From: Saprospiraceae bacterium
GTDB taxonomy: Bacteria; Bacteroidota; Bacteroidia; Chitinophagales; Saprospiraceae
Direction of reading: 5' to 3'
DNA length: 49,799 bases
NCBI GenBank assembly: GCA_024103195.1
Contig: JAGFIW010000027.1
Location: 1 to 49,799 of the forward strand
Shown here one piece after another: positions 31,404-49,799 of this stretch. The first letter of the stretch is position 1; each line of letters starts with the position of its first letter. Below the pieces are notes generated by a model. That model had not been told where the DNA came from. It was given only the letters and a program-made list of their open reading frames with translations, and searched no databases. Both the position numbers and the translations under genes were made by a program.

Positions 31404-33107
31404 CTACAGGGTATCCCGGAGCATGACATTGTTGCCCCTTTCATCCCTCACGCGCAATTCCAGGAGCCGCCTGCCGACATTTGCTTTTGATGGCGGATAA
31501 AAAGTCAGGACTTTGTCGCCATGGTTCCAGGAACCGGGCACCCATTGGCCATCCACTTGGATATCCCAACGGACATTTCGCCCGCCATGTGCGTCTGACA
31601 GGTCATCCTGGAGAACAAATCGCCAGGGACCGGCACGGACATGACCAGCGGAAGTGACGGACCGGATGACCGGGGCCAGCGTATCGGCATACAACCTGTA
31701 GGTATCCAGCCGATGGGTACGAAAGGAAAGACGGCCATCCTGATACCTGCCGCCACATGACATCCAACGGTCGCCATCCTTGTAGGCTCCCACCCAGATT
31801 TCTGGATTTGAACGGGCATATTCAGGAAGGAGCAGGGTTACATCCATGTCCTTGTGCAGGGGAAGCCCCGGATGGTGAAGTTTGTATTCCACCTGGCCCG
31901 ATGCCGATTCCAGACGTGCATATTCAAAATAGGTGGTCTCATAGAGAGCACCTGCCGGAATGCGCCATGAAATATCGCTTTCCTCATGGGAAAAATCCTC
32001 TCCGAACGGGATCCGGAATTGGTATAGACGGGGAAGCGGCTCGTCCATTTTCTCATCACGCCGGATCCAGAACCGGAGTTGTGACGACCGCCCCGCCTGA
32101 TCGGTAACGGATATGGTCACCTCTCTTTTTTCCCATTGGCTGAGCGTGATCACACCTGCTTTTTTCAAAACCGGGTACATCGGCAACCGATTACCCTGCA
32201 GCGGATAGCAACGGTACACCTTACGCCTGTTGAATACCCATTCGGCATGGTCCCAATGGGCGTTGTTATACCTCGTCAAGCGGAGGTCCAGGCTGTCGGA
32301 GCGCCATTCAAACACGTTTTCCCGATCGACATCCACGCGAAGCATGCGGATACCGGTCCGAAACCGGTTGCCGGCTACCGGGTCATGGGCGGCGACGCCC
32401 AGCCCTACCCGCCAGGCGCCGATCCGGAGGGTATCACCCTTGACTTTGTACACCAATCCTTTTTTCAACAGGGGGACATTGACGTCGAAAAGAGGCAGCA
32501 GTTTGTCGTCGAGGCCATAGACTTTCAATCCCGTCAATACCGGAGGCTGATTGTCCGGAAACCGGATGCCCGCCCGGGCCGGATCCAGGGCATGAAAACC
32601 ATCCCTTTCCCGGAGTTCAAAATGAAGGTGAACACCTGTGGACCGACCGGTAGTGCCCATCAGGCCCAACAACTGGCCCTGGCGCACCGGAAACTGGTTT
32701 CTGTCCAGCACCAGGTCGATTTCCTCCTTTCGCCAGGCAAACCGGATGGTATCCACCCAGGCTTGCAAAGCGGGATTGAACCGTTCGAGATGGGCATATA
32801 CCGAGGTGCGACCATCGGGGTGGCGCACATGGATTGCACGGCCATAACCGTCGTGGGAAATGATAATCCGGCACACAAAACCGGCGGCCACCGATATCAC
32901 CGGATCACCGGCTTTGCCGCCGGAGGACCGGAGATCCACACCGGCGTGAAAATGGTCTTCCCGCAGTTCGCAAAAAGATCCGGTCAGGACCATGGGATGC
33001 CTGACGGGAGGCCGGTATGTCTGGGCCAGGGCCGTCCACCCCGTCAAACATGCCACGACCAACAAAGCCACCCTGGATAACATGCCTGCAAGATACGACC
33101 GGAACAA
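31404..33107 (-). CDS. exported M23-family metallopeptidase with large C-terminal region
   Basis: A 567-residue secreted protein. A signal peptide (cleavage after TALAQ) precedes an M23 (LytM) domain with metal ligands in HAGVD (His54, Asp58) and the catalytic HLHF (His160, His162), plus the GDPVISVAAGFV and YGRAIHVRH strands. The domain should cut peptidoglycan cross-links or other glycine-rich peptides. The remaining 380 residues are beta-rich and not recognised; this long tail is common in Bacteroidota M23 proteins. An internal ATG at 33083 would also leave a signal peptide. It is the last gene of a closely packed minus-strand train, 22 bases after a GT4 gene. Confidence 0.88.
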   Translation of the reverse strand: MFRSYLAGMLSRVALLVVACLTGWTALAQTYRPPVRHPMVLTGSFCELREDHFHAGVDLRSSGGKAGDPVISVAAGFVCRIIISHDGYGRAIHVRHPDGRTSVYAHLERFNPALQAWVDTIRFAWRKEEIDLVLDRNQFPVRQGQLLGLMGTTGRSTGVHLHFELRERDGFHALDPARAGIRFPDNQPPVLTGLKVYGLDDKLLPLFDVNVPLLKKGLVYKVKGDTLRIGAWRVGLGVAAHDPVAGNRFRTGIRMLRVDVDRENVFEWRSDSLDLRLTRYNNAHWDHAEWVFNRRKVYRCYPLQGNRLPMYPVLKKAGVITLSQWEKREVTISVTDQAGRSSQLRFWIRRDEKMDEPLPRLYQFRIPFGEDFSHEESDISWRIPAGALYETTYFEYARLESASGQVEYKLHHPGLPLHKDMDVTLLLPEYARSNPEIWVGAYKDGDRWMSCGGRYQDGRLSFRTHRLDTYRLYADTLAPVIRSVTSAGHVRAGPWRFVLQDDLSDAHGGRNVRWDIQVDGQWVPGSWNHGDKVLTFYPPSKANVGRRLLELRVRDERGNNVMLRDTL

Positions 33108-33129
33108 TGGCCTTTTCCCCCGGCGGAAA

Positions 33130-34239
33130 TCAGCCGGCTGATTTTTTTGAACCGGTCACCTCTTCATAAAGGGCCACATATCCCCGGACAGCGTCCTCCA
33201 GTGGAAAACTCCGGGGAGGCGAAACCGTCCAGGCCTCCCGATGAGCGTCCACCAGCGCCTTGTACATGGCTGCTTCCGTCAGGTTGTCTATGGTAATGGT
33301 TTTTCCTCCGGCCACTTCGGCCAGTGCCGCCCGGCCACTGTGGACCACCGGAACACCGATGGCTACAGCTTCGGCTGCTACAAAACAAAACCCTTCACTA
33401 TAGGAGGGGATCACCACGCAGGAGGAATGCGCGACGAGGTGAAACAGCCGGTCGGGATCCAGATCGTGCCAGAGTTCTATGCGGCCGGCATGGACCGAGG
33501 AATGGATCTGGCGAAGGATACGATTGTACAGCGGACGAGGATAAGTGGGAATGATGCAGCAAAACCGCGCATCAGGATGGGCTTCCAAAAAGCGCAGCGC
33601 GGCCGGGACAAGAATATCCAGACCTTTGGAATAACCCAGGCGACCGAAATAAGTGAAGATGAAGGACCCAGGGGGTTGATGACCATACGCGGCCCACGGG
33701 AATTCAGGGAGTCCATTGTAGATCAGCGTAACGGCCTTCGGGCTTTTACCGGCGTGGATCAGCGATTGGGCCGTGGCCCGGGAAACGGCGACGAAGCGGT
33801 GAAAAGGCAACAAGAGGATCCATCGTTCCCAGCACCAATACGCCAGCCTCATGGGCATCGGGATCCATGGCAATTGCCACCAAAGGCGGCCCCAAACCTC
33901 ATGGAAGGTGATGACAGCAGGCATGCGGCGTAAGAAAGCGACGATCCATGCCGGGAGCGCCGCATTGTAGGAGGTGGTTTGTATCAGGTCATAGGCGCCG
34001 GCGACTTTCCAGACCCTGGACAAACTGAAAAAGGAAAAAAGAAACCGGTTATGGCAGGTTACCCGGTGGATGGTGATGCCATCCATCATTTCGACTTCGG
34101 GCAGGTCGGAACGAAAACGTGTCGTCACCACCCCAACCCCATGTCCCTGCGCCACCAGCTCCCGGGCGAGCGAGAGAAAAAGGCTTTCCGCCCCTCCGAT
34201 ATAGGGGTGGAAATGTTCCAGTACAAAAAGAACTTTCAC
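33130..34239 (-). CDS. GT4-family glycosyltransferase
   Basis: A 369-residue GT-B glycosyltransferase. The N-terminus VLFVLEHFHPYIGGAES holds the Gly-Gly acceptor-side loop, YFGRLGYSKGLDIL begins the donor domain, and EGFCFVAAE is the E-x7-E donor-binding motif (about 290-300). It has no membrane segment and works on the cytosolic face, adding one sugar to a growing glycan. The start is a GTG at 34239, inside the DUF2304 stop codon (GTGA overlap); no ATG fits the family start (K-V-L-F-V), and frames extending further upstream run through DUF2304. Donor and linkage cannot be told. Confidence 0.88.
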   Translation of the reverse strand: MKVLFVLEHFHPYIGGAESLFLSLARELVAQGHGVGVVTTRFRSDLPEVEMMDGITIHRVTCHNRFLFSFFSLSRVWKVAGAYDLIQTTSYNAALPAWIVAFLRRMPAVITFHEVWGRLWWQLPWIPMPMRLAYWCWERWILLLPFHRFVAVSRATAQSLIHAGKSPKAVTLIYNGLPEFPWAAYGHQPPGSFIFTYFGRLGYSKGLDILVPAALRFLEAHPDARFCCIIPTYPRPLYNRILRQIHSSVHAGRIELWHDLDPDRLFHLVAHSSCVVIPSYSEGFCFVAAEAVAIGVPVVHSGRAALAEVAGGKTITIDNLTEAAMYKALVDAHREAWTVSPPRSFPLEDAVRGYVALYEEVTGSKKSAG

Positions 34240-34586
34240 TGATTTTCTTCCTTGGCATTTTCTTCCAGCGCCAGTTTTCTGGTCAGACGGGTAAGGGCCG
34301 ACTGTTGCTCCTTGATCATGAAAAAGAGCTTGTACTGGATAAAAAAGATCAACCCCAGACAAAAGAAAATGATGGCGTTGATGTTGCTTTTGATACCGAA
34401 AATGCGGGCAATCAGGTTGGATATGGTGTCCGGGAAAATGGCCACCAGGATGACCCCCAACCAAAAACCGAACCCCAGGAGCGTTTCCTGCCAGCCGGCT
34501 CTTGACAAAGCAAAGCGCCGAAGCATGTTCATGATGAACACCAATCCGATCAGCGGTACAATCAGTTGATAGATTTCGAAATCCAT
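34236..34586 (-). CDS. DUF2304 membrane protein
   Basis: A 116-residue protein with three membrane segments (about 5-21, 34-52 and 66-90) and a charged coiled tail, the layout of DUF2304. These small proteins are usually encoded next to a DPM1-like GT2, as here (4 bases after it), and probably form a membrane partner or flippase-like subunit for the polyprenyl-phosphate sugar (inference from context). Its stop overlaps the next gene's GTG. Confidence 0.85.
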   Translation of the reverse strand: MDFEIYQLIVPLIGLVFIMNMLRRFALSRAGWQETLLGFGFWLGVILVAIFPDTISNLIARIFGIKSNINAIIFFCLGLIFFIQYKLFFMIKEQQSALTRLTRKLALEENAKEENQ

Positions 34587-34590
34587 GGTT

Positions 34591-35295
34591 TTAATTTTTC
34601 GGGGTGAACACCAGTTTCCAAATCAAATTGATGGCCGTGATGACACCGGTGTGGAGGTTTTGGCCTTTGCTCATCGAATAGTCTGTATAGGAAACAGAGA
34701 TCGGGATTTCCGCTACTTTCAGATTAAGCATTTCTGCTTGAATGATCATTTCCGAGCAATACCCGAATCCGTCGATATGCAACTCCAACCGCTCAATGGC
34801 ATGGCGGTTGAGCAACCGGAATCCCGATTGGGTATCCGAGTACCAACGCCGGCAAAACCAGTTGGTGAAAACATTGGAAATCTGATTATACAAAACGCGG
34901 ATCCAGGGTACATCGCCCTTTTTTTCCACGAACCGGCTACCGATGGCGATGTCGCAATCCCCTTTGGCCATGCGGGTCATCATCCTGGCCAGATCTTCCG
35001 GGTGATGCTGGCCGTCGGCATCCATTTGTGCCACAAACCGAATGCCTTTTTTTCGCGCGTAATACAATCCTGTCTGGGCTACGGCTCCTGCGCCCCGGTT
35101 GACTAAATGGCTGATGACCATGGCCCCGCCCAGCTCGGCCTGGGCAGCCGTATCATCCGTACTGCCGTCATCGACCACAAGGATATTCGGATACCCGCAT
35201 TGCCGGATATGCGCCACCACCCCGCGAATGACAGGTCCTTCGTTGAAAGCGGGAATAATGACCCATATGTCCTCCGGTTTTATGATGGCGGGCAT
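34591..35295 (-). CDS. polyprenyl-phosphate glycosyltransferase (GT2, DPM1-like)
   Basis: A 234-residue GT-A glycosyltransferase. It has VIIPAFNEG at the start, VVDDGSTDDT, the metal-binding MDADGQHHPED (D-x-D) and AIGSRF, all as in dolichol/undecaprenyl-phosphate sugar transferases. It has no C-terminal membrane helices, which fits pairing with the DUF2304 protein that follows. Likely product: an undecaprenyl-phosphate sugar used outside the membrane by a GT-C enzyme, for which the 1138-residue protein five bases upstream is the obvious candidate. Confidence 0.9.
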   Translation of the reverse strand: MPAIIKPEDIWVIIPAFNEGPVIRGVVAHIRQCGYPNILVVDDGSTDDTAAQAELGGAMVISHLVNRGAGAVAQTGLYYARKKGIRFVAQMDADGQHHPEDLARMMTRMAKGDCDIAIGSRFVEKKGDVPWIRVLYNQISNVFTNWFCRRWYSDTQSGFRLLNRHAIERLELHIDGFGYCSEMIIQAEMLNLKVAEIPISVSYTDYSMSKGQNLHTGVITAINLIWKLVFTPKN

Positions 35296-35300: not shown

Positions 35301-38300
35301 TTACAGCAATTCAAAAAGGATATAAGAACCCTGGAGGGTATTCACCCCCCCGATACCCGGCTTGCCCGGCACACGCACCTTGCCCACCTGGGTGAATGGC
35401 ACGGCGGGATCCTGGATGAAATTGTCCGTCAGGATCGGACGCGCCATAGGCGAGTTGGCCAGCGTAAGAAAGAAATCATTGGCTTTTTTGGTCAGGCTTT
35501 TATCGGGTGTGCGGTCAATCTGGGTTGTATTCAAATCATAGAGGACATATTTGAATCCTTCCTCTTTCAGAAGCCGGACAAAATCGTCCTTGCGCCGAAG
35601 CACGGATACCGTTTGTTCATAGACGCCCAACTGGTTGTCCTCCAGGACACGCCGGTCATTGCGGACAATGTGGTAATTGAAAAAAGTGCCGACCCGGTAG
35701 ACCTTGGCCGTAGGATCTGCATTGAGCAATCGGACCACCTCCTCCATGTAAGGCATCGTAGCGGCATAGGTATCCCTGAGATCGGCCGGTCCCGACGCGA
35801 ACTGCAAAAACGGATGGTTGTACCACATACCGGGCTGCTCCCTGGATTGGGGCTGGCCCGAAACGAAAAACAGGAACAACGACAGCAGTCCAGACACCAC
35901 TACCGCGCCCCGCCACCAGATGCGTGCCATGGAAGCCGGGATTCCCTGACCAAGGGCATCCTGCTTGTCGAAAAACCAGGCAAACGCTACAAAAAGCAGG
36001 GCGAACATCGGGAACCCGTACCAGACTATGGCATTGCCCAACAAGATCCACAACAAGCCGAAGGTGATCCCGAATGCCCCCAAATTCCGCATGTTGTCGG
36101 GCATTTGGCGGCCTTTCTCGCGAAGTAACCACCAGGCTCCGGCACCCAGCAACAGAATCAAACAGAAAACCGCGTAAAACGGAAGGCCGGACAGAAAGGC
36201 ATAGGCGCCATGGATCAGCCGGCCGGCTTCCACAAATCCCGTTTGTACCCTTTCGAAAACCGCGCCCGTGAAAGACCCTTCTTCCGAGGGCATCAAACCC
36301 TGTTGCCATTGCAGTTTTTCCGCTACCAACGCCGGGTCTGGTGGAGCGCCCCCCTCCGAATAAAGGGAATACACCGAGATGGTCCAGATCAACAGGCTCC
36401 CGAGGATGACCAGCGCATTGCGCCAAAGGCCGGTCCCCCAGAAAAGGAAAGGCAGGACAAGGAGCAGGAGGAAGGAAATGTCGAGGTACCTGGAAAAAGG
36501 CACCTGGGTGTTCATGGTCATGTCGTAAGGGAGAGAAAGGAAGAGGGGAAGACCGGGTTCATATCCGATATAGCGTTTGATTTCTTCCTGTTGGACACCG
36601 CCGAACAAAGAGGTGCGATACAGGGCACGGTCCACGCCCCGGCGCACTTCTCCTTTGCGGACACCTTCGAAAAGCGCTTTTTGATCCGGAGAGAGGACCT
36701 GGTCGAAAATCTCCTCACGCAACCCCATGAGTCCCATGCGATCACCCTGGCGGATTTTTCCTTCCGCGTGGTAGGTCCGGAGCAATTGCATCAAATGTTC
36801 CTTTTGCGCATTGTCCAGTTCAAAACCACGCCGGGACATCATTTGATTGAGAATGTCGTAGGTGGTCGAGAGGTCATCCGACAGTTCCCCGGTTTCCGAA
36901 GGAGGATAGGCCATCCTGGCCCGTGCTATCTGGCGTTGCTCATCATCCAGTATCTCGTCTATGGCCTTGTTGCGGGCATCCATGAGTTGGTCCATCCTGC
37001 TGCCTGGTGTTGCCTCCCTATTCAAATCCAATTGAGCTGCCAGGACCGCCAAACGGGATAACTGGTCAGGTCGAAGATCCACCCCCAGGTTTCTGAGACT
37101 TTGCTCCAGGATGAATTCCGGCTGACCCGCCTGTGTTTCTTCCTTCGCCAAGAATGCCTGCACATCCAAATGGGGTGACACCGGTTTGCCCTGCACCAGA
37201 TGCGAGATGGCAAACCGCCCCTGTTCACGGAGATGTTTGGCCATCCAGGGTGAAAAACACAGCAAAGCGGCGACCCCGAAGGTCAGCGCGGTCCTGAACA
37301 TGGGTTTCCAGGCTTCCGGGTGCCTGCGCCATCCCGAAGCAAGCAGAGCCATTCCGGGCAACAGGCAGGTCAGGGCAAAGGCCCACCCGGGCGTGTCCCC
37401 CAATTCCAGATATCCAAATCGATTGATCCCGGCCAGGAAAAGGAGGCCGAGGGCGGACAGCAAGACGCCAGCGGCCCCGGGACCCCGCAGGTAACGGTAA
37501 GCCATCAGGGACAGCATTCCGACGATGACCAGCAATCCGGTGTATTTGATACCAAAAGCAAATCCACTCAGCCATCCGGCCAGGGCCCACAAGACTGTGG
37601 CCGAAGGGACTTGCCACCGGCCTATCTGAATGGTTCCACTGCCGGCCTCTTTCCGACCACCACGGGTGGGATCGTATTCAAGAATGAGGAGCAACATGGC
37701 CAGGGACACGAACAGGAATCCGAGGTCTACTTTCTCATCAAACAGGGCATGAAAAGCGAAGGCGGGATTGAGATACATCAAAGCCATGGCCAGCCAGGAG
37801 CCGCTCCGGGAGAGGACAAGCCGGGCCACCCGGTAAATGGCCCACATGCCAAGGAGCATGGCGCCATGGGACAATTGAATGGAGACAGCCACGCGGCGGA
37901 AGAGAACCTCCCCCAGGCTCATGAACAGTTCCCAGTTGTAGCTCTGCCCTATCCGCGGCAAAAATCCCCTGTCGGCGAGGATATGGGTGGTATTCATGTA
38001 CAACAGGGCTCCGTCGAAGCCCACCGGGAATGCCTTGACCACACCCACCTGCACGATGGCCATGGCGATAGCCACAACAAACAAAGGCAACAAACGCCAG
38101 GAGGACTCACCCTTCAGGGACACGGGAGCCAAAAACAAATCCCGCAGAAAATCCAGGATGGTGCGGTAACGCCAGATGGTCACCAGCGCAACGACCGGCC
38201 AGACGACCCAGGTCTTCAATTGTCCGAAGGCGCCTGCGGCAAAAAGGAACAAAGTCATGACGCTGATTCCGACGGCCAGACTGATCAGGTAATACGTAGA

Positions 38301-38717
38301 AGCCGAATAGCCGGCGCGAAGGGGTTTCATCAACCAGGTCCCCAATCCGATATGAAAGACCAGAATGAAAAGGAATGCGGCATGGATTCCCATGCTGTAG
38401 GCGGCAAAGTAGGAGAGGTGTCCGGCCACGCCGTCCGGAAAAACATGGTATGCCGATGCGTACATCCCGAGCACGATCAAACTGAGGAAGAGGACCCAGG
38501 CATACACCATCCATCCGCGGACTACCGCTTGCGTGCGTGTCAGGAAGTACCAGACACCGCCGGATATCAACATAAGGGCCAGGATCAGTCCTGCATTCGG
38601 CCATTGGGTGAAGGCTACGGCATAATACGGATGAAACGCCCAATAGCCCAGCAGTACGAGGAATGTCCATCCTGCAGCCCATAGGGGCCATATCCTGTGA
38701 TTAATCGGCGTGGGCAT
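35301..38717 (-). CDS. 1138-residue polytopic GT-C-like protein with LTxxQ-type helical insert
   Basis: About twelve hydrophobic segments before residue 495, about six more between 740 and 955, and a soluble C-terminal domain (955-1138). The loop GFDGALLYMNTTH (233-245) and FDEKVDLGFLFVS (326-338) carry acidic residues as in GT-C transferases that use lipid-phosphate sugars; the GT-C call is by layout and context, not by a proven signature. Residues 500-735 form a hydrophilic, helical insert with four evenly spaced motifs resembling LTxxQ of Spy/CpxP: LRPDQ (548), LDDEQ (590), LDNAQ (634) and LSPDQ (675). This insert is not known to me from GT-C proteins. It lies five bases before the GT2 gene. 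It may transfer sugar to a glycan or protein outside the inner membrane. Confidence 0.7.
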   Translation of the reverse strand: MPTPINHRIWPLWAAGWTFLVLLGYWAFHPYYAVAFTQWPNAGLILALMLISGGVWYFLTRTQAVVRGWMVYAWVLFLSLIVLGMYASAYHVFPDGVAGHLSYFAAYSMGIHAAFLFILVFHIGLGTWLMKPLRAGYSASTYYLISLAVGISVMTLFLFAAGAFGQLKTWVVWPVVALVTIWRYRTILDFLRDLFLAPVSLKGESSWRLLPLFVVAIAMAIVQVGVVKAFPVGFDGALLYMNTTHILADRGFLPRIGQSYNWELFMSLGEVLFRRVAVSIQLSHGAMLLGMWAIYRVARLVLSRSGSWLAMALMYLNPAFAFHALFDEKVDLGFLFVSLAMLLLILEYDPTRGGRKEAGSGTIQIGRWQVPSATVLWALAGWLSGFAFGIKYTGLLVIVGMLSLMAYRYLRGPGAAGVLLSALGLLFLAGINRFGYLELGDTPGWAFALTCLLPGMALLASGWRRHPEAWKPMFRTALTFGVAALLCFSPWMAKHLREQGRFAISHLVQGKPVSPHLDVQAFLAKEETQAGQPEFILEQSLRNLGVDLRPDQLSRLAVLAAQLDLNREATPGSRMDQLMDARNKAIDEILDDEQRQIARARMAYPPSETGELSDDLSTTYDILNQMMSRRGFELDNAQKEHLMQLLRTYHAEGKIRQGDRMGLMGLREEIFDQVLSPDQKALFEGVRKGEVRRGVDRALYRTSLFGGVQQEEIKRYIGYEPGLPLFLSLPYDMTMNTQVPFSRYLDISFLLLLVLPFLFWGTGLWRNALVILGSLLIWTISVYSLYSEGGAPPDPALVAEKLQWQQGLMPSEEGSFTGAVFERVQTGFVEAGRLIHGAYAFLSGLPFYAVFCLILLLGAGAWWLLREKGRQMPDNMRNLGAFGITFGLLWILLGNAIVWYGFPMFALLFVAFAWFFDKQDALGQGIPASMARIWWRGAVVVSGLLSLFLFFVSGQPQSREQPGMWYNHPFLQFASGPADLRDTYAATMPYMEEVVRLLNADPTAKVYRVGTFFNYHIVRNDRRVLEDNQLGVYEQTVSVLRRKDDFVRLLKEEGFKYVLYDLNTTQIDRTPDKSLTKKANDFFLTLANSPMARPILTDNFIQDPAVPFTQVGKVRVPGKPGIGGVNTLQGSYILFELL

Positions 38718-38753: not shown

Positions 38754-39941
38754 TCATACGGGCATGTTACGGACCTTGTCATGGCCGGAAGGCCGTGCCG
38801 CAGACGGGCTTTCGGGCGTAGGGTCCGGCATCCCCCTGTCGATCCGGCCGACGGCATCCAACCAATCCCGGGCGTGATCGGCCCAGTTGAACAAAGCAGC
38901 CCTTTGTCGCCCTTCCTGTCGGAGGCGTTGGTAGTCGTCTGCCGGTAATTGTCCCATTTGGAGCATGGCCCGGGTCAAAGCCTGGGTGTCCATCGGATCG
39001 ACATACCAGGCCGTATCCCCACCCACTTCTGGAAGACTGGATACCCCCGAGCAAATGACGGGACAACCACAGGACAGGGCCTCGAGGACGGGCAACCCGA
39101 ATCCTTCATATTCGGAAGGGTAAACCAGGGCACGGGCATGGGTGTACAGCGCACTCAGTACGGCATCGGGAACAAAGCCGGCCAAATGGATGTCTGCCCG
39201 GAACGGATGTTCTTCCAGCGCCCGGTAAAAGGATTCGGATTTCCACCCTTTTTGACCCACCACCAGAAGTGGAAGGCCGTCCTTTTCTGTCTTCCGGTAG
39301 GCGGCATAGGCATCCAACAGCCGGATCAGGTTTTTTCTGGGCTCGATGGTACCGACCGACAACCAGTAAGGAGGTCGGATACCGGATTGTTCGAGCCAGG
39401 TCATGTTGGCATTCGGCTGCATGTCCGGGTCGCATCCCAGGGGGATGGTCGTGATCCGGGACGCCACCTCCGGGAAAAAAGTCCGGATATCGGCGGCGGT
39501 ATGCGCGGAATTGGCCAGGATCAGAGATGCCCTCCGCAAAATGCCCCGCAAAAAGATGCGTTGCAGCCATTGGCTGTGAAACCGGTGATATTGGGGAAAC
39601 AGCAAGGGGGTCATGTCGTGGATCATGGTGACCCTTCGGATGCGTGCAGGCAGGTTGAAGGGGCCGAAATGAGCCGGTTCAAACACCACGTCCACTTTGT
39701 GCCACCACAGGACAAGGGGCACCACGAAAAACAACCGCAAGGCCGCCAGGCCAAGTCCTATCCGGACATTGGGGATGACGATCTGCCTGGCACCGGACAA
39801 GGATGGATCTTTTCGTTCGCGAATCAGGATCCACTCGTGCCCTCCACCGGCCTGCAGGAGATGGCGCACCAATTCCCGCGTGTAGACGTGTACCCCGCCT
39901 TTCTGGTTGTCTATCGGGTCGGCGATGATGGCAATCCTCAT
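38754..39941 (-). CDS. GT4-family glycosyltransferase
   Basis: A 395-residue GT-B glycosyltransferase. Seen are GGVHVYTREL near the start, FEPAHFGPF, VTMIHDMTPLLFP (similar to mannosyl- and rhamnosyl-type GT4 enzymes), the SVGTIEPRKNLIRLLDAY donor-domain start and EGFGLPVLEALSCGCPVI with the E-x7-E motif. It is cytosolic. Its ATG overlaps the stop of the sulfotransferase-GT4 fusion (ATGA at 39941), and its sequence is clearly related to the GT4 half of that fusion, for example HDMTPLLFP against HDMTHQLFP, suggesting duplication. The GT-C-like gene follows 36 bases later. Confidence 0.92.
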   Translation of the reverse strand: MRIAIIADPIDNQKGGVHVYTRELVRHLLQAGGGHEWILIRERKDPSLSGARQIVIPNVRIGLGLAALRLFFVVPLVLWWHKVDVVFEPAHFGPFNLPARIRRVTMIHDMTPLLFPQYHRFHSQWLQRIFLRGILRRASLILANSAHTAADIRTFFPEVASRITTIPLGCDPDMQPNANMTWLEQSGIRPPYWLSVGTIEPRKNLIRLLDAYAAYRKTEKDGLPLLVVGQKGWKSESFYRALEEHPFRADIHLAGFVPDAVLSALYTHARALVYPSEYEGFGLPVLEALSCGCPVICSGVSSLPEVGGDTAWYVDPMDTQALTRAMLQMGQLPADDYQRLRQEGRQRAALFNWADHARDWLDAVGRIDRGMPDPTPESPSAARPSGHDKVRNMPV

Positions 39942-42294: not shown

Positions 42295-43008
42295 ATGATG
42301 TTCTCCTGGTTTCGCCGGTCCCGGCCCAAGGACGGTCCTCTGCGCCTGATCTCTGTCCATATTCCTAAAACGGCAGGCACTTCCTTCAGGAATACCCTCC
42401 GGCAGGTGTATGGCGCCCGGGAAGTCATCCGTCTGGACATTGGCCTGGTCCGTCAGGAGACGCGGATCAACGAGCACATCTATGAAGACCCCGGTTTGCC
42501 TGTAGGGACTTCGGTCATCCACGGTCACTTTTCCTATCCATTGTTGACCGAACGCTTTGCAATCGACCCGGCCGTACCTGTCATCACATGGTTGAGAGAT
42601 CCGGTAGATCGGGTCATATCCAACTATTTTTATCTGGCCCGCCGACTGGAGGAAGAACTCGATGAGGAAGGCAAGGGTCTGAACATCCTGAAGAAAATGC
42701 AACGGTCATTGATCGAATACGCCCGTTATGAACCCGCCCGCAACCGGATGACCAGATTTTTGGAAGGCCTCCATGTGGAGGACCTTCGGTTCGTTGGCCT
42801 GGTAGAATACTATGACGAGGATCTGAAGAGATTGTCGGGCCTGCTGGCGTGGCCGGAATACCCGGTTTTCAGTCACAACAAAACGGAAAGGGACACCTCC
42901 CATGTTTCGGCGGCGGAAATCGACGAGATACGCCGGCTGAATACGGAGGATATCAAACTCTATGACAGAGCCATGAACCTGAGGGAGAAAGGCCATTGGA
43001 TGCCATGA
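42295..43008 (+). CDS. PAPS-dependent sulfotransferase (family 2 type), first copy
   Basis: A 237-residue protein with the PAPS 5'-phosphosulfate loop HIPKTAGTSF (22-31) and 3'-phosphate site WLRDPVDRVIS (99-109), the form seen in carbohydrate sulfotransferases of the heparan-2-O type. GHFSY (about 78) follows the usual GH-F motif. There is no signal or membrane segment, so it works in the cytosol on a nucleotide- or lipid-linked glycan or cytosolic acceptor. The start is one of two adjacent ATGs (42295 and 42298). Its stop overlaps the ATG of a related sulfotransferase (ATGA), pointing to tandem duplication. Confidence 0.88.
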   Translation: MMFSWFRRSRPKDGPLRLISVHIPKTAGTSFRNTLRQVYGAREVIRLDIGLVRQETRINEHIYEDPGLPVGTSVIHGHFSYPLLTERFAIDPAVPVITWLRDPVDRVISNYFYLARRLEEELDEEGKGLNILKKMQRSLIEYARYEPARNRMTRFLEGLHVEDLRFVGLVEYYDEDLKRLSGLLAWPEYPVFSHNKTERDTSHVSAAEIDEIRRLNTEDIKLYDRAMNLREKGHWMP

Positions 43009-43670
43009 TCGAATTGTTGTCCATCCACATCCCGAAAACGGCGGGAACCTCCTTTCACGATATCCTGGTGCAGGTGTATGGTGAAGCGGTATCCGCATCC
43101 CTGAAGCGACGGGATGTGCTGGCCAATGAAAGGGAGTCCCCCGACGGGCGATTGCGGTTTGAGCATGGTTTGCGGGTGATTCATGGTCATTTCAAGTTCA
43201 GGGAAATTGCCCATTTGCGGATTCCCGGCGAGACGCGGTTGATTTGCTGGTTGCGTCATCCAGTCCTGCGGGTGGTATCCAATTGGCATTTTTTCCAGGA
43301 TGGCCTTCGGCATCCGCAAAGGAATCCAGAACAATCCCGACAGAATGCCCACCGGCAGGGAGAGTCCCTCCTGACCTATGCCCGCGAGCAGGAAAATCGC
43401 AATCGCATCTCGGATTTCCTGGCCGGCGCCACACCGGAAGATTTCTTCTTTATCGGCATTCAGGAGCATTTCGGGGAGGATATACAGCGGCTGGGAGGCA
43501 TGCTCGGCTGGCCGGAGGTACAGGTTCGTGACCTCAACAAAAATAGCCGGGTCTCCGACCCAAGCCCCGAAGAGTGGGCAGAAATCAGCCGCCTGAACAG
43601 CGATGACCTCGTCTGGTACGAACAAGCCCTGCAGTGGCGAACCCGCAAAATCAAACGCGTCGAATCCTGA
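43005..43670 (+). CDS. PAPS-dependent sulfotransferase (family 2 type), second copy
   Basis: A 221-residue paralog of the preceding gene. HIPKTAGTSF (8-17) and CWLRHPVLRVVSNW give the two PAPS-binding sites, and IHGHFKF matches IHGHFSY of the first copy. The two also share a C-terminal EI-RLN-D-YE/YDRA-like stretch. The divergence between the copies suggests different acceptor positions (inference). The ATG at 43005 overlaps the previous stop; an ATG three codons earlier is possible. The next gene begins at the last base of its stop (TGATG). Confidence 0.88.
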   Translation: MIELLSIHIPKTAGTSFHDILVQVYGEAVSASLKRRDVLANERESPDGRLRFEHGLRVIHGHFKFREIAHLRIPGETRLICWLRHPVLRVVSNWHFFQDGLRHPQRNPEQSRQNAHRQGESLLTYAREQENRNRISDFLAGATPEDFFFIGIQEHFGEDIQRLGGMLGWPEVQVRDLNKNSRVSDPSPEEWAEISRLNSDDLVWYEQALQWRTRKIKRVES

Positions 43671-44671
43671 TGGTACACAAACGACGCGTCCTGTTCCACC
43701 GCACCTGGACCAAACCCAACGGAGGCACCAGCGGAGGTCAAATGAAGGTAAGGGATGCCTTCGAGCATTTTCGTCATTCGCCTCATTTTGAACCCTTTGT
43801 TTATTTTCCCAAAGAGACGGTCTGGCATCCCAATCCCGGTAATGTGTGGTGGCCTTACAAGGATCAGGCATTGCCCGAATGGGATATCCGGCCTTCCGAT
43901 GTGTTGTTTCTTGCCGGAACAGACTGGCTGGTCATGCCCCTTTCCGAACGCGAACATCCACCTGTGCCCGTAATGAATATTGTCCATCCCCGACATACCC
44001 GTCCAGAGGACTCAAGACATGCTTTTCTGCATCATCCGGCCATAAGGATCGCCAAAAGTTCGGCCGGCATGCAGATCCTCCAGGAATATGGGGTCAACGG
44101 CCCGCTATTCCTGATCCCGGATGCCATTGACCTCGATCTTTTGCCCGCACCGAATCCTCACCCCGACCTGGACATCCTTATCGCGGGATTGAAAAACGAA
44201 GCACTGGCCCTTTCTCTGTACCAATCCCTAAAAAGACGACTGCCCCACATCCGTATTGAGGTGCAGGTGCGCCCTCACCTACCAACAAGATCCGATTTCC
44301 TCCAATTGCTCAACCGAACCCGCATAGCCGTCTTTCTGCCGCTCCCAGCGGAAAAAGGAGCAGAAGGATTCTATCTGCCTGCCCTCGAAGCCATGGCCCT
44401 GAAAAAGCTGGTTGTTTGCCCTTACGCGGTGGGCAATGCCGATTTTTGTTTGCCCGGGGTCACTTGCCTGCAGCCCGATTACAACGAGGCGTCCTTGTTG
44501 GAGGCCATCGAAGAAGCCTTTGCCATGCCGGAAGATGCACAGTCGTCCATGATCCGTAACGGGTGGGAAGTCAGTCGCCGTCATGGTCTTGAACAGGAAA
44601 GACAGGCGTATTTATCACTCTTAAACCAAACCGATGAGCTTTGGCAGCAACCGGCTCTTTTCCACGCCTAA
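43670..44671 (+). CDS. GT-B glycosyltransferase-like protein
   Basis: A 333-residue protein with a Gly-rich N-terminal loop (TKPNGGTSGGQMKVRDA) and the donor-site E-x7-E motif EGFYLPALE (about 238-246), followed by KLVVCPYAVGNADFC. The overall order fits a divergent GT4-like GT-B transferase, shorter than usual (most are 350-400). It is cytosolic. It sits between two pairs of sulfotransferase genes and is overlapped at both ends (by one base upstream and 38 bases downstream), so its product probably acts on the same glycan. Donor and acceptor are unknown. Confidence 0.75.
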   Translation: MVHKRRVLFHRTWTKPNGGTSGGQMKVRDAFEHFRHSPHFEPFVYFPKETVWHPNPGNVWWPYKDQALPEWDIRPSDVLFLAGTDWLVMPLSEREHPPVPVMNIVHPRHTRPEDSRHAFLHHPAIRIAKSSAGMQILQEYGVNGPLFLIPDAIDLDLLPAPNPHPDLDILIAGLKNEALALSLYQSLKRRLPHIRIEVQVRPHLPTRSDFLQLLNRTRIAVFLPLPAEKGAEGFYLPALEAMALKKLVVCPYAVGNADFCLPGVTCLQPDYNEASLLEAIEEAFAMPEDAQSSMIRNGWEVSRRHGLEQERQAYLSLLNQTDELWQQPALFHA

Positions 44672-45506
44672 TCGTATCCCGGCCGGAGAGGACATTTTCC
44701 TGACCGGTGTGCCCCGCTCCGGAACTACGCTGGCATGTCGGCTGCTCAATCAAGTGGCGCATGTCGTGGCGCTCAATGAGCCATTGGAGCCTGCCGTATT
44801 CGCGGATCGTTCTGCCGCATTGGAAAATCTGGAACGCGCCCTCTCATCCATCAGACAAGAACTTGGCCGGACAGGGGAGGCCCCTTCGAGGCACAGGGAA
44901 GGTCGATTCACCGACAATAATTTCAGTTCCGGACCCGGAACCAGGGAGCTCGTCGTCAAAAGGTCAATGCTTTCATTCGGACCTCCTCGCAAAGGTCCCT
45001 TTACCCTCGTACTCAAGCATAATGCAGAATTTACCCAACTCCTACCAGAGCTCTCCCGGCGGCATTCCGTTTTTGCCCTGATCCGAAATCCCCTGGCGGT
45101 TTGGATTTCCTGGCGTACCGTATCCATAGCCGCATCAAGGGGACAACTCTCCAAATCGGACCGTCTGTCTCCGGACCTTCATGCCGCCCTTGAAAAAATA
45201 CCGGATCTCACGGCCCGGCAACAATTCATTCTTGATTGGTATTTCCGTCAGTTTCAATGCCTGCCTTCCGATCATATTCTGCGTTATGAGGATCTGGTAG
45301 AGACTGGCGGAACCTGTTTGCAACAAGTCGTCGGACAGGCGGTACCCCGAGACCCTGATTTGGCGGTAAACGAACAATTGCCTCCGGGAGGACCTGAAGA
45401 AGCTGCCCGGTTACGTGATGCGTTGCTTCGTCATCCCGGAGCCTGGTCGGAACACTATACCTCCGGTGACGTAGAAACTTATTGGGCCTGCCTCCCCAAA
45501 TCCTGA
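44634..45506 (+). CDS. sulfotransferase, second type, first copy
   Basis: A 290-residue P-loop sulfotransferase-like protein. The 5'-phosphosulfate loop is FLTGVPRSGTTL (22-33), the 3'-phosphate site is ALIRNPLAVWISW (148-160), and the ILRYEDLV strand is in its normal place. KHNAEFTQLLPEL and the end PGAWSEHY are shared with the next gene. It belongs to a different branch from the HIPKTAGTSF pair. No membrane segment is visible. The ATG at 44634 lies 38 bases inside the end of the glycosyltransferase gene; the conserved loop is far enough in that a slightly later start could be used. Confidence 0.85.
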   Translation: MSFGSNRLFSTPNRIPAGEDIFLTGVPRSGTTLACRLLNQVAHVVALNEPLEPAVFADRSAALENLERALSSIRQELGRTGEAPSRHREGRFTDNNFSSGPGTRELVVKRSMLSFGPPRKGPFTLVLKHNAEFTQLLPELSRRHSVFALIRNPLAVWISWRTVSIAASRGQLSKSDRLSPDLHAALEKIPDLTARQQFILDWYFRQFQCLPSDHILRYEDLVETGGTCLQQVVGQAVPRDPDLAVNEQLPPGGPEEAARLRDALLRHPGAWSEHYTSGDVETYWACLPKS

Positions 45507-45509: not shown

Positions 45510-46316
45510 ATGGCCGAAGATATCATTCTGACCGGACCACCACGGTCAGGGACAACCCTGACCTGTCACCTGCTCAACCTGTTGGACAACACGATTGCCC
45601 TTCATGAACCTATGAATCTGGCCATGTTTCCCGACCGGAAAACAGCTCTTGGCAACATTGCCTCATTTTTTGGAGAAATGAGACATTCCCTTCTGAGCGA
45701 AGGGAAAGCGCTATCCAAGGTGGCCGGGGATAAAATTCCCGACAACCCGTTTGCGACGCAAGAAGGCGGTCGCAGGTCCAGCATTGTCGTCAAAAAAACG
45801 GTCACATTTGACAAGCCGCTTTCATCCAATTTCCGACTGATCATTAAACACAACGCCCATTTCAGCCTCCTGCTCCCGGACCTTGTCAAGACATACCGGT
45901 GTTTTTGCATCATTCGCCACCCTTTGTCGGTGATCAGATCCTGGAATACCATACAAGCACCTGTTGCAGAGGGTAAGATCACCGTCTTCAAAACCCTGGC
46001 TCCGGAAAAATACCGGGAAATTGAAGCCATACCCGGTCTCCTCGAGCGTCAGATCCGGCTTCTGGATTACCTGTTCTCTTGTTATGTGGATCTGCCCGGA
46101 TTGACCATCATCAAATACGAGGACCTGATTGCCACCAAGGGATCTGCCCTGAGGAGCATGGTACCGGAGGCAAGCCACCTGAACGAGCCTCTGCAAAATC
46201 GTAATCGAAGTCCCTTGTACGATCCCCGGGAGGTGGAAGTCGTACGGCATGCCATCCTGGATTATCCCGGGGCCTGGCAGTCTTTTTATTCCCGTGATTC
46301 CATCGCTCTACTCTGA
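45510..46316 (+). CDS. sulfotransferase, second type, second copy
   Basis: A 268-residue paralog of the preceding gene, three bases downstream. LTGPPRSGTTL (7-17) and CIIRHPLSVIRSW form the PAPS sites, and TIIKYEDLIA is in register with ILRYEDLVE. Further shared blocks are HEP, KHNAHFSLLLPDL and PGAWQSFY at the end. The first copy has a longer N-terminus. Two tandem pairs of different sulfotransferase types in one train imply several distinct sulfation sites on the product. A carbohydrate acceptor is inferred from context; sulfotransferases also act on proteins and small molecules. Confidence 0.85.
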   Translation: MAEDIILTGPPRSGTTLTCHLLNLLDNTIALHEPMNLAMFPDRKTALGNIASFFGEMRHSLLSEGKALSKVAGDKIPDNPFATQEGGRRSSIVVKKTVTFDKPLSSNFRLIIKHNAHFSLLLPDLVKTYRCFCIIRHPLSVIRSWNTIQAPVAEGKITVFKTLAPEKYREIEAIPGLLERQIRLLDYLFSCYVDLPGLTIIKYEDLIATKGSALRSMVPEASHLNEPLQNRNRSPLYDPREVEVVRHAILDYPGAWQSFYSRDSIALL

Positions 46317-46320
46317 GTCC

Positions 46321-47208
46321 ATGAAGTTTTTCAAGCATAAAACAATTGCACTGGCTACTGTCACCACACCCAGATTCATGCCGGGTACTATGGTCCTGCT
46401 GCATTCCTTTTTGAAAACCAATCCATGGTTCAAGGGTGATATCCTGATCATTCATGACCAGCTGCCTGAGGTTCACCAGGTATTATTGCGCCGACTTTAC
46501 CCGGTCAGGTTTGTCCAGACGGGCGAGGATCTCCTCCAACGGGTGCAAACCCTAATTCCTGACTATGCCGATTTTGAACGAAGAAAGGCGCAGTTCTACT
46601 CGCTGGAAGCATTTCGATTCCGGGAATACAACCAATTGATTTTTATGGACAGCGACATGCTTGTTCTGGGCTCCCTGGAGGAGTTGACGATGCGCCCGGA
46701 ACCCTTGCTGGCTTGTGGCACCGTAAAATATTACCGACCCGGAGAGGATGACGGTGATCCCTTTCAGGTAGAGCAGTTTAATGCCGGGATGATGCGTATC
46801 GACGGAAAGTTGCTGGGAACCGGGGTCCGCCAAGCCCTTTTGGAAAACATTTCATCCAGTTTTTTTGCTCCTTTTCTTGACTGGGCTGCCACACACGAAT
46901 TGCCGCGTGTCGGCACGGATCAGATCATCCTGAATACCCATTTCGGGCATCAGGTCACTTTTATCCCTGCATCGTTCAATTACAGAGACGGCATCGCAGC
47001 AGAGATATCGGAACGAGACGGTTGTCGCCTCGAGGATGCACGCGTCATCCATTATACCGGAGGCAAAAAACCATGGATGGCGGAAAAGGTATTGCAACAC
47101 CTGTTCAAGCAATCCCGTGATCTGACCATTTTCAGACTGTGGACACTGGCATGGGCTGATCTGTTGCGGGATTTTGAACAAGGCCGGACCGATGAGTCAA
47201 ATCATTAA
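46321..47208 (+). CDS. GT8-like glycosyltransferase
   Basis: A 295-residue GT-A transferase. The metal-binding D-x-D is in FMDSDMLVLG (Asp110 and Asp112), preceded by the helix KAQFYSLEAFRF that is usual in glycogenin/LPS GT8 enzymes, and the C-terminal HYTGGKKPW supplies the second metal site. QFNAGMMRID is also typical. It probably transfers glucose or galactose from a UDP sugar with retention. The start at 46321 directly follows the upstream stop (46316); an ATG at 46249 lies inside that gene. It closes the closely packed part of the plus-strand train. Confidence 0.88.
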   Translation: MKFFKHKTIALATVTTPRFMPGTMVLLHSFLKTNPWFKGDILIIHDQLPEVHQVLLRRLYPVRFVQTGEDLLQRVQTLIPDYADFERRKAQFYSLEAFRFREYNQLIFMDSDMLVLGSLEELTMRPEPLLACGTVKYYRPGEDDGDPFQVEQFNAGMMRIDGKLLGTGVRQALLENISSSFFAPFLDWAATHELPRVGTDQIILNTHFGHQVTFIPASFNYRDGIAAEISERDGCRLEDARVIHYTGGKKPWMAEKVLQHLFKQSRDLTIFRLWTLAWADLLRDFEQGRTDESNH

Positions 47209-47277
47209 TCCATATTTAAATTGCTGTCAATCAGCATTGTGTCAGATCAATACCCATGAGTCTTGCTGGCATTGGCA

Positions 47278-47320
47278 TATAATTTGACCCTCACCCGAAG
47301 ATACTGTACCGTTCTAGAAC
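47278..47320 (+). promoter_or_regulatory. promoter-like box and palindrome before the MBOAT gene
   Basis: TATAATTTG (47278-47286) resembles the -7 box with one base missing, and a perfect ten-base palindrome GTTCTAGAAC lies at 47311-47320, between this box and the ATG at 47361. If both are real the palindrome would be an operator downstream of the transcription start. Tentative. Confidence 0.25.
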
Positions 47321-47360
47321 CGGTCAGTCCGCTTTCTTGTCATCCCCCGATTAACCCCGT

Positions 47361-49799
47361 ATGCCAATGACACCCCCGAAGACGCATTTCGCGGAGAGAG
47401 ACATATCAATCCGGGGGCAGATGGTATCATGGGCCTTGCTTGCCGGACAGCTTGCCGCGGCGATCGCTGTGGTCCACATTTACGATCTGGAAACAGACCT
47501 GCATTTGCGGGATGTTCTATTATGGACGGCGCTGGGCCTTGTCTGCCAAACCCTTCTTCCAAGGAAATGGTGGCCTTTCACCCTGGCAATGATCTGTGTG
47601 GCCGGGCTGTTCGGATTTGCAGGACCTGCCAATGCCTCTGTTACTTTGATGTTGGGGACAGCCATTCTCTTTCTGGCCAACCTTAGCATCAAATGGATCC
47701 GATGGACCAGCCTACTCCTGGTATTCGGATCATTGGCAACTGTATATGTAATCCTCCCTGTATGGGCAGAACCTTTCACACCGGCCATGACGACTCTGGG
47801 CGTCATGTTCATGTACAGATTGCTCATTTTCCTCTATGATCGTCACCAGGCTCCGTCAACGCCATTGGATGCGACTGACTTAACCTACTTTTTTCTTTTG
47901 CCGAATATGGCCATGTCGCTGTTTCCGGCAGTAGATTACCGTCATTTTCGTCAACATGTTGATCCTGCCCGACGAATACTGGTGTGGAAAAAGGGAATGT
48001 TTTGGGTGGTCACCGGCGTATTCCATTTGGTCATCTATCGCTGGGTTTACCACCACCTGCTCCTGCCTGCGGGTGAGGTGAGAGACCTGTTGGGACTGGC
48101 ACGTTATACCTTTTTCAATTATGCCCTGATCCTTAGACTGTCCGGGTTATTTCATTTGGCGGTTGGCGTGTTGGGTCTGTTGGGCTTTGACCTTCCAAGA
48201 GTATTTCACCATTATTTTCTCGCGACTGGATTCAGCGACCTGTGGCGCAGAATAAATATTTATTTCAGGGATTTTTTGGTCAAGGTGTTTTATTATCCCA
48301 TTTACTTCCGGCTCAGGTCATGGGGTAATGTCAGAGCCGTTCCTGTCGCCATTTTACTTCTCTTTGTCATCACCTGGTTCCTTCATTCTATCCAATGGTT
48401 CTGGATCAAAGGACAGTTTCCGCTTCGCATCCAGGATGGCATTTTTTGGGGGTTATTTGGTGTTCTGGTGGCCATCAATGCATGGTGGGAGATTAAATAC
48501 AGGACATCCCACTCCCTGACCGGCCATCTGCCGACAAGGGCATTTACCCAGGTGACCCGTATCGCTGGCATGCTGGTCTTCATGAGTCTACTATGGTCCC
48601 TGTGGACGGCCCCGTCCCTGGATGAATGGTGGCTCCGTATCCGCACCGGCCTGATATCACCTGTCAGCCAATACGTAACCCTTTCGTTGACACTGGTCTG
48701 CCTCCTGTTTGCAGGAACAGTGGCCTGGCTGGTCGTGCATCATTTTCGGCTTGCGCGTTGGCTCGACCCGGAACCATCATCTTCTGTGGGCACCTTCTGG
48801 TCTGCCATCCTGTTGATGCTGCTTTTGGCATTTCCATGGGTAGCGCCCGCTCTCCAGCGTTCCACAGATATGTCCATGGCCGGAATACTGACAGAAAAAT
48901 TGAGTGATGCCGATGAAATACGCCGCATAGAAGGCTATTACAATCATATACTCACCGGGCATCAGTTGACGGATCCGCTTGCCGGCCGTAAAAATTTGCT
49001 CCCGGACACCGAAAATGACGCCAGAATATATACCGGAGACTTTCGGCATATCAGTAAAAAACCGGATATGTCCATTTTGCTGAAAGGTCAACCCTTCACG
49101 ACCAATGCATGGGGCATGCGAGACGATCCATTGTCCGAAGAAAAACCGGAAGGCAGTGTCCGTATCCTGCTTATGGGAGGATCATTTGTTGTCGGATCCG
49201 GAGTGGCGGATCATGAAGTATTTGACCGCCGCCTTGAAGCTCTCCTCCAGCCAAACAAAGGCAAGTCGCAGTATGAGTTCATCAATACCGCAACCGCCTC
49301 CTACGACCTGGTGGATTGTATCCTCCAGTTTGAAGTGGAGGAATTTCAAAAGTTTCACCCGGACATTCTGATGTTCTTTACACATGGCATAGACGGTACC
49401 AAGACCATCCGTGACATGGCGCGCCAGTACAAGGCGGGTGTACGGATGCCCTACCTTTTCATGGACGTGTACATAAATCGTGCAGGCCTGCGGCGGGACA
49501 TGAGTGAGGAAGAAATGGTCCTTCTTCTTGAGCCTTTCACCAGTGATATCCTTGAGGATGGGTATCAAAAGTTGCGCGAAGTTTGTGATACCCATCATAT
49601 CAGGCCCGTCTGGGTGTTCTGGCCCCCCATCGCACGGGCCGAAGCCGCATTGGAGGAAAAAGCGTTGAGCAAACAAATCGCCAGGAATCTGGGATTTGAA
49701 CTTATTGACCTGGAGCCGTTGTACAAGGGATTGGACCCGGAATCATTGACGGTCAGTCGGTTTGATATGCATCCCAATGCCCTTGCCCATTCCCTGATG
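47361..49799 (+). CDS. MBOAT-SGNH fusion O-acyltransferase (3' end outside window)
   Basis: At least 813 residues, open to the window edge. Residues 20-510 hold many membrane segments with an MBOAT-like core: FSDLWRRINIYFRDFLVK (about 290-307), then YYPIYFRLRSWGN and WFLHSIQWFW, where the His is in the place of the MBOAT catalytic His. From about 590 a soluble SGNH-like domain follows, with ILLMGGSFVVGSG (nucleophile Ser in GGS) and DMHPN (about 804-808), the D-x-x-H-like end block. MBOAT proteins pass an acyl group across the membrane and SGNH partners (as AlgJ/AlgX or PatB) load it on a glycan; here both are in one chain, so O-acetylation of the locus product is the natural reading. No alternative start gives a better N-terminus than the ATG at 47361. 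Confidence 0.8.
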   Translation, partial: MPMTPPKTHFAERDISIRGQMVSWALLAGQLAAAIAVVHIYDLETDLHLRDVLLWTALGLVCQTLLPRKWWPFTLAMICVAGLFGFAGPANASVTLMLGTAILFLANLSIKWIRWTSLLLVFGSLATVYVILPVWAEPFTPAMTTLGVMFMYRLLIFLYDRHQAPSTPLDATDLTYFFLLPNMAMSLFPAVDYRHFRQHVDPARRILVWKKGMFWVVTGVFHLVIYRWVYHHLLLPAGEVRDLLGLARYTFFNYALILRLSGLFHLAVGVLGLLGFDLPRVFHHYFLATGFSDLWRRINIYFRDFLVKVFYYPIYFRLRSWGNVRAVPVAILLLFVITWFLHSIQWFWIKGQFPLRIQDGIFWGLFGVLVAINAWWEIKYRTSHSLTGHLPTRAFTQVTRIAGMLVFMSLLWSLWTAPSLDEWWLRIRTGLISPVSQYVTLSLTLVCLLFAGTVAWLVVHHFRLARWLDPEPSSSVGTFWSAILLMLLLAFPWVAPALQRSTDMSMAGILTEKLSDADEIRRIEGYYNHILTGHQLTDPLAGRKNLLPDTENDARIYTGDFRHISKKPDMSILLKGQPFTTNAWGMRDDPLSEEKPEGSVRILLMGGSFVVGSGVADHEVFDRRLEALLQPNKGKSQYEFINTATASYDLVDCILQFEVEEFQKFHPDILMFFTHGIDGTKTIRDMARQYKAGVRMPYLFMDVYINRAGLRRDMSEEEMVLLLEPFTSDILEDGYQKLREVCDTHHIRPVWVFWPPIARAEAALEEKALSKQIARNLGFELIDLEPLYKGLDPESLTVSRFDMHPNALAHSLM

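Follow-up and report, generated by a model that had tools for sequence, protein, structure and literature searches.

This analysis concerns a gene block of a Saprospiraceae bacterium located on contig JAGFIW010000027.1 (C119) of assembly GCA_024103195.1; the window, that is the whole stretch of DNA analysed, is this entire contig of 49,799 bases. The genome measures 3.1 Mb in 289 contigs and is 96% complete; among the named genomes of the reference set, Saprospiraceae metagenome-assembled genomes (MAGs) are its nearest relatives. Between position 33130 and the right contig end, two divergent gene trains contain glycosyltransferase (GT) and sulfotransferase genes, and the rightward one ends in gene N, a putative acyltransferase in which an MBOAT half is fused to an SGNH domain. 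In relatives, the block also includes an ABC-2 ATPase and permease and an operon, here called the pyrrole kit, that encodes a small carrier protein, an adenylation enzyme (the ligase), an acyl-CoA-dehydrogenase-like protein and a tryptophan-halogenase-like flavoprotein, often together with a methyltransferase and an LTXXQ protein. On balance, the whole system appears to produce a sulfated surface glycan bearing a pyrrole-2-carboxyl group that is probably halogenated. An earlier note on this DNA had proposed that its products synthesise a surface glycan, sulfate it at multiple sites and acylate it; the extended evidence supports this proposal, which was incomplete as to the export route and the acyl donor.

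In the proposed mechanism, the GT4, GT-B and GT8 enzymes would build the chain in the cytoplasm, where five sulfotransferases dependent on 3'-phosphoadenosine-5'-phosphosulfate (PAPS) would sulfate it; a Wzm/Wzt-like ABC-2 pair would export the glycan, and a trio composed of GT2, DUF2304 and GT-C proteins would probably add a polyprenyl-phosphate-borne sugar at the outer face. The acyl group would derive from L-proline, loaded onto the small carrier protein by a PltF-type ligase, oxidised to pyrrolyl-2-carboxyl-S-carrier by a PltE/RedW-type dehydrogenase acting on the prolyl-carrier and halogenated by a PltA-like flavin enzyme. The DltB-like half of N would take it from the carrier and pass it across the membrane to an invariant tyrosine (Y526/Y527), and the fused SGNH domain would then transfer it to the glycan; MBOAT, shuttle Tyr and SGNH enzyme would thus be united in one protein. 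Gene content, co-conservation, folds, motifs, linkage and co-occurrence were established from sequence, and from these we infer the halogenation, the acceptor, the role of the tyrosines and each chemical step.

Genes N and E matched no Pfam family at an E-value of 0.01 and structure was therefore used for both. The model of N, based on an alignment of 27 sequences, has a predicted local distance difference test score (pLDDT) of 83.6; residues 45–425 align with DltB (8jem) with a Z of 19.7 over 354 residues at 3.9 Å, residues 538–813 adopt an SGNH fold (Z 19.5 with CgnD) and PatB is also among the Foldseek matches of the model. The catalytic-type histidine H342, in the motif W-x-x-H-x-x-Q-(W/F), is invariant in the 27 sequences and the SGNH residues S608, D802 and H804 are invariant too; the O-acyltransferase fusion recognised in the earlier note is recovered in the model as a DltB fold followed by an SGNH fold. 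The contig end truncates N, whose final 18 residues are located on contig C227. In the model, two helices (435–461 and 475–502) separate the DltB-like core from the SGNH domain, and these last transmembrane helices are followed by an invariant tyrosine pair, Y526/Y527, in the motif (G)YYxx(I/L)L. In the case of DltB the acyl group comes from a carrier protein, and the shuttle motifs of other MBOATs are found on two extra transmembrane helices (Anderson et al., PMC12148441); a similar shuttle role is proposed for the Tyr pair of N.

The pyrrole kit of the own genome is located on contig C66, which encodes carrier, ligase, dehydrogenase, halogenase and LTXXQ proteins. The carrier retains the DSI phosphopantetheine motif. 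The best stand-alone match of the ligase in the PDB is an L-proline carrier ligase (6o6e, 1.6e-78). The residues at its ten specificity positions spell DLFYLALVCK, with the same or near variants in all the relatives examined; we take this string to be the PltF/RedM proline code, and a search of open-access papers did not find the strings. The ligase does not appear to be D-alanine-specific, the NCBIfam models of DltA scoring far below cut-off. Regarding the dehydrogenase, three of its four best solved matches are prolyl-carrier dehydrogenases (including 4irn and 5zw0; prolyl-acyl carrier protein/peptidyl carrier protein), and the WE motif with the catalytic Glu of SMxWE is found in 9 out of 9 cases. 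The best solved match of the halogenase is PltA (5dbj), and the own-genome enzyme retains, as most relatives do, WxWxIP and the catalytic Lys. It is highly probable that the acyl group is a proline-derived pyrrole-2-carboxyl, acetyl-CoA being most likely not the donor, and fairly likely that this group is halogenated in the organism itself.

A variant compatible with this reading, although rather doubtful, retains the same system and has the carrier deliver L-proline or an unhalogenated pyrrole-2-carboxyl, with the flavin enzyme acting as a monooxygenase. Related flavoproteins do include monooxygenases, and WxWxIP is lost in locus L088 and changed in L107, so that the acyl group is possibly unhalogenated or hydroxylated in some species; on the other side stand the intact motif and Lys of the own-genome enzyme, its match with PltA and the presence of a dehydrogenase in every complete kit seen within the block.

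The connection between N and the kit is based on co-occurrence and on gene position. Among 250 genomes, the kit dehydrogenase was found in 14 of 14 with N and in 6 of 236 without N (table 14/0/6/230; Fisher test, with a p-value inflated by the relatedness of the genomes, which are not independent); the corresponding values for gene G and the dehydrogenase were 10/4/1/235 at a stricter cut-off and 10/4/10/226 at the cut-off used for N, and the kit thus tracks N more closely than it does the glycan genes. In a phylum-wide sample of 395 genomes, the dehydrogenase is carried by all three N genomes beyond the own one (1e-73 to 1e-102); moreover, among 12 named genomes, N is in the locus in 11 of the 11 that have a strong ligase match, and the one without N has weak ligase matches only. 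The carrier gene lies directly after N in seven loci (L085, L088, L103, L107, L155, L157 and L159), the last three of which come from genomes without the G fusion; therefore, the N–carrier–ligase unit can stand alone. The acyl group transferred by N very probably comes from this carrier.

These data also bear on the possibility that kit and glycan are separate neighbours, the kit making a diffusible (halo)pyrrole metabolite and N O-acetylating the glycan from acetyl-CoA like PatA/AlgI. Such kits normally feed antibiotics made by polyketide synthases or non-ribosomal peptide synthetases (PKS/NRPS), as for pyoluteorin and prodigiosin, in line with the family matches; PatA uses acetyl-CoA (PMC12148441), and the dehydrogenase is unlinked to N in three genomes of f9 and in G288. 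This explanation is nevertheless unlikely, since N without the kit dehydrogenase was met in 0 of 14 genomes among the 250 and in none of the three of the phylum sample, the N and carrier genes are adjacent or overlapping in the seven loci, which belong to several families and include those without the G fusion, and genomes G148 and G259, which are devoid of N, carry a plain MBOAT and no kit. In addition, no PKS/NRPS partner was recognised beside the kit in the 25 kb locus of the nearest relative, G249, whose flanking open reading frames were partly Pfam-scanned.

Other arrangements of N were observed in genomes without the G fusion. In L157 (G142) and L159 (G110), from another family of the order, sulfotransferase-like genes are followed by N, carrier and ligase, the latter with the variant codes DIFYLAFVCK and DLHYLALVCK; a second type of acylation unit is possible. 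In L155 (contig C95 of G042), the train is N–carrier–ligase–dehydrogenase–halogenase–N, and one of the N copies is in two frames and may be broken.

As regards sulfation, the window contains five sulfotransferase domains, in agreement with the earlier count, and the 5'-PAPS loop is retained in the sequence of all five. Four are above the Pfam cut-offs: the N-terminus of G reaches 57 bits with PF00685 (cut-off 22), H and I reach 24.3 and 22.9 bits with PF03567 (cut-off 22) and K reaches 30.6 bits with PF13469 (cut-off 27). L, with 17.6 bits against the PF00685 cut-off of 22, is below, but it is homologous to K, both being of the PRSGTTL type, and its counterpart in a syntenic relative shows 51% identity. 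The sulfotransferase domain of G matches the profile of cytosolic PAPS sulfotransferases, shares 49–62% identity with ten syntenic relatives and has PAPS-binding motifs that are invariant across 11 aligned sequences; H shows a weak phmmer match to heparan sulfate 2-O-sulfotransferase (E 0.03). The PAPS synthesis genes cysC, cysD and cysN are located on contig C208 (L054 7083-14238), and the genome holds both PAPS-dependent sulfotransferases and PAPS synthesis, as sulfated-glycan biosynthesis requires. The three cys genes lie beside genes for a UDP-sugar dehydrogenase, a sugar acetyltransferase, an oxidoreductase and an epimerase, a cluster which suggests that the glycan contains acidic sugars.

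The link between the window and the exporter is in part physical. The last 127 bases of the window overlap exactly the start of C227 (reverse strand), which completes N and carries two further N genes that are intact, plus the initial part of a fourth. This fourth copy is interrupted by an insertion sequence with 22/25 inverted ends (hand count) and a 7-base duplication, GATCACG (C227 = L154, C155 = L141); when its flanks are put together at the empty site, a reading frame of 851 codons results. The second part of the copy starts the 4.3 kb contig C155, where the ABC-2 ATPase and permease genes come next, in a convergent layout shared with the nearest relative; beyond the permease, the insertion sequence end occurs a second time, and these copies explain the assembly breaks. 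In NCBIfam the ATPase is nearest to TagH/Wzt and the permease to Wzm, all well below the equivalog cut-offs, and no C-terminal binding domain was seen in the ATPase. The earlier note had found neither exporter nor PAPS genes, as is correct for the window contig; both are encoded elsewhere in the genome, and the extension past the contig end that it had recommended leads, through C227 and the split N, to the ABC-2 pair. The idea that kit or exporter is absent from the organism was rejected, the exporter being on C155 and the kit on C66. With high confidence, the glycan is sulfated and ABC-exported.

Pyrrolyl groups are borne on the sugars of aminocoumarin antibiotics such as clorobiocin. This precedent, together with the fact that genes for Wzx, Wzy or another polymerase were not seen and with the low scores of the ATPase and the permease, would suit a sulfated, pyrrolyl-acylated glycolipid or oligosaccharide natural product, and not a long polysaccharide, as the substrate of the ABC pair. 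Such a product is quite unlikely, considering that an ABC-dependent route requires no Wzy and that envelope polymers are the targets of those MBOAT-SGNH systems whose function is known (PMC12148441); the number of GTs is compatible with both types of product.

The conservation of the glycan block was followed by searching G in 249 genomes of the order, 13 of which, besides the own one, have full-length or split relatives of G (ten with the full-length fusion); the genes around these are the same, and their order and orientation differ little from one genome to another. When the reference genomes were scanned with the alignment of the G sulfotransferase, 80 loci were obtained; Phaeodactylibacter, Neolewinella, Lewinella and numerous Saprospiraceae MAGs carry the block, and Planktosalinus and Dokdonia have it in a rearranged or shortened form. 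In the nearest relative, G249 (Saprospiraceae MAG Go_SlAct_bin_199), the entire locus, from exporter to carrier, is contained in one contig with the gene order PERM ATP N N L K J I H G F E D C B LTXXQ HAL ACAD A PCP. The genes are hence co-conserved across Saprospiraceae and other Bacteroidota, whereas the earlier note had named the opposite outcome as a ground for refutation.

Some additional features were noticed in the related loci. Plain MBOAT genes, with no pyrrole kit, occur in loci without N (L047, L069, L100, L102 and L113) and might acylate the same glycan as an alternative module; sulfatase genes are present within the block in several species (L042 5988-7361 and 16361-17692; L061, L072) and perhaps edit or recycle the sulfated glycan. 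Close relatives of the G sulfotransferase domain are found in MAGs of Planctomycetes, Deltaproteobacteria and Nitrospirae (L106, L109, L112, L116, L119, L124), a distribution that suggests a wide horizontal spread.

The acceptor of the acyl group is likely to be the sulfated glycan, and the degrees of confidence expressed for this and for the other parts of the proposal are mutually dependent. Several observations weigh against the pyrrole-decorated glycan, in addition to the relatedness of the genomes, the unlinked dehydrogenases and the altered WxWxIP motifs described above. The glycan block is present in G174 and G148 and both N and kit are absent from them, so the acylation is accessory; the kit dehydrogenases match the PigA/RedW models of NCBIfam under the equivalog cut-offs; the canonical hexapeptide FXYXXF has no exact match in N and the linker holding Y526/Y527 is of low confidence, with a pLDDT under 50 from residue 524. 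Finally, C66 is tied to the block in the own genome only via binning and the synteny of relatives: an overlap of its ends with the window, C155 or C227 was sought and none was found, and C66 would adjoin C155 by analogy.

The features of the window are collected in Table 1. The leftward train has the order G, F, E, D, C, B and the rightward one H, I, J, K, L, M, N; open reading frames, strands and overlaps bear out the head-to-head arrangement with short overlaps that had been described earlier, but not the extension of the block to 31404. Its left edge is gene B, as the adjacent M23-peptidase gene does not adjoin B in the syntenic relatives and is probably a neighbour outside the system. A reading of the locus as anti-phage defence was dropped because PADLOC gave no match.

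Table 1. Genes of the block and of its left neighbour in the window
Gene	Product	Position	Strand	Basis
	Peptidase M23-domain protein	31404..33107	-	PF01551 1e-17
B	GT4 glycosyltransferase	33130..34242	-	PF13439 3.8e-24; syntenic in G249, G174, G229, G237, G148, G243
C	DUF2304 membrane protein	34236..34586	-	PF10066 4e-19
D	GT2, polyprenyl-phosphate-sugar-synthase-like	34591..35295	-	PF00535 6.2e-23
E	GT-C fold glycosyltransferase, 1138 aa membrane protein	35301..38717	-	structure model, no Pfam family
F	GT4 glycosyltransferase	38754..39941	-	PF00534 9.9e-29; after G in nearly all close relatives
G	Sulfotransferase-GT4 fusion, 696 aa	39938..42028	-	PF00685 2.7e-15, PF00534 9e-29
H	Carbohydrate-type sulfotransferase	42295..43008	+	PF03567
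I	Carbohydrate-type sulfotransferase	43005..43670	+	PF03567
J	GT-B glycosyltransferase	43670..44671	+	PF00534 2.3e-6; 45-64% identity in syntenic relatives
K	Sulfotransferase	44634..45506	+	PF13469
L	Divergent sulfotransferase	45510..46316	+	PF00685 17.6 bits, under cut-off; K homologue; syntenic
M	GT8 glycosyltransferase	46318..47208	+	PF01501 1.3e-14
N	MBOAT-SGNH fused acyltransferase, 813 of 831 aa in window	47361..49799	+	structure model, invariant residues

Seven glycosyltransferase domains are present instead of the five counted previously: three GT4 (B, F and the C-terminus of G), one GT-B (J), one GT2 (D), one GT8 (M) and one GT-C (E); the types named in the earlier note, namely GT4, GT2 with DUF2304, GT8-like and GT-C-like, were confirmed by Pfam for most and by the structure model for E. 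Foldseek alone yielded no clear match for E, whose AlphaFold2 model has a pLDDT of 78.7; VIA-align of this predicted model gave a Z of 13.1 with ArnT (433 aligned residues, 4.8 Å), 12.6 with AglB, 12.4 with oligosaccharyltransferase (OST) and 12.1 with ALG12. According to the model, E is a GT-C-fold enzyme nearest to ArnT and the oligosaccharyltransferases. On the basis of family knowledge, E, the GT2 enzyme and the DUF2304 protein probably add a sugar carried by polyprenyl phosphate outside the membrane; the role assigned to D comes from its pairing with DUF2304 and GT-C.

All the parts of the system come from known families, and no report of their combination was found: the open-access literature gave nothing comparable for a sulfotransferase combined with pyrrole and MBOAT or with a halogenase, for a carrier combined with MBOAT and pyrrole, for a Saprospir* sulfotransferase and exopolysaccharide or for a halogenated polysaccharide, nor any report of a pyrrole decoration on a bacterial glycan, in keeping with the earlier note, whose author knew of no described Bacteroidota locus of such composition. 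Tentatively, and as a possibility that falls somewhat short of probable, the system could represent an undescribed class of glycan modification, Dlt-like and distributed in several Bacteroidota families together with a stand-alone N–carrier–ligase unit, in which an MBOAT-SGNH protein places a flavin-halogenated, proline-derived pyrrole-2-carboxyl from an NRPS-type carrier on a sulfated, ABC-exported surface glycan. The groups added by the MBOAT-SGNH and Dlt systems known so far are acetyl or D-alanyl; if the proposal is true, a secondary-metabolite kit would be wired to such a transporter, (halo)pyrrole would be a covalent decoration of a sulfated bacterial glycan and two fields, envelope acylation and halogenated natural products, would be joined. 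Carrier-dependent acylation in a Gram-negative would also become testable in cultured type strains. In granular sludge the makers of sulfated glycans are described as unclear (PMC7356697), and the block offers a concrete candidate producer in sludge and marine Bacteroidota.

Among known systems, the putative sulfated glycosaminoglycan-like cluster of Pontiella sulfatireligans (PMC7356697) is similarly rich in GT2/GT4 and includes a sulfotransferase, a polyprenyl-P-mannosyltransferase and a YfhO-like membrane protein; in contrast to the present block, it has a single sulfotransferase, and neither acyltransferase nor halogenase is mentioned in the text of that paper. The ABC-2 permease and short ATPase in the locus resemble the Wzm/Wzt and TagGH exporters, whose models (TagH/Wzt and Wzm) they match, and differ from them in the low scores and in the ATPase C-terminus, as reported above. 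The kits for pyoluteorin and prodigiosin (PltF-PltL-PltE-PltA, RedM-RedO-RedW, PigA) share with the present one a proline ligase, a carrier, a prolyl-carrier dehydrogenase and a PltA-like halogenase in one operon, but here an MBOAT-SGNH protein, sulfotransferases, GTs and an ABC exporter are linked to the kit and no PKS/NRPS partner was recognised adjacent to it. The O-acetylation systems PatA/PatB, AlgI/AlgJ/AlgX and WssHIFG likewise combine an MBOAT, in which two extra transmembrane helices are followed by a Tyr, with an SGNH protein; in N the two are fused, the link is to a carrier instead of acetyl-CoA and FXYXXF is inexact. The closest parallel is the Dlt pathway of teichoic acid D-alanylation (DltA, DltB, DltC, DltD and DltX), which has an adenylating ligase, a carrier, a DltB-fold MBOAT and an SGNH enzyme and transfers an acyl group, derived from an amino acid and bound to the carrier, onto an envelope polymer, as is proposed here. 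In contrast, the ligase described here has a proline code and not one for D-Ala, the group on the carrier would be modified by a dehydrogenase and a halogenase, a single protein combines MBOAT and SGNH with a candidate shuttle Tyr, the host is Gram-negative and the putative acceptor is a sulfated glycan. The system would work like Dlt, yet it stands outside the Dlt family, since neither D-alanine specificity nor the canonical shuttle motif was found.

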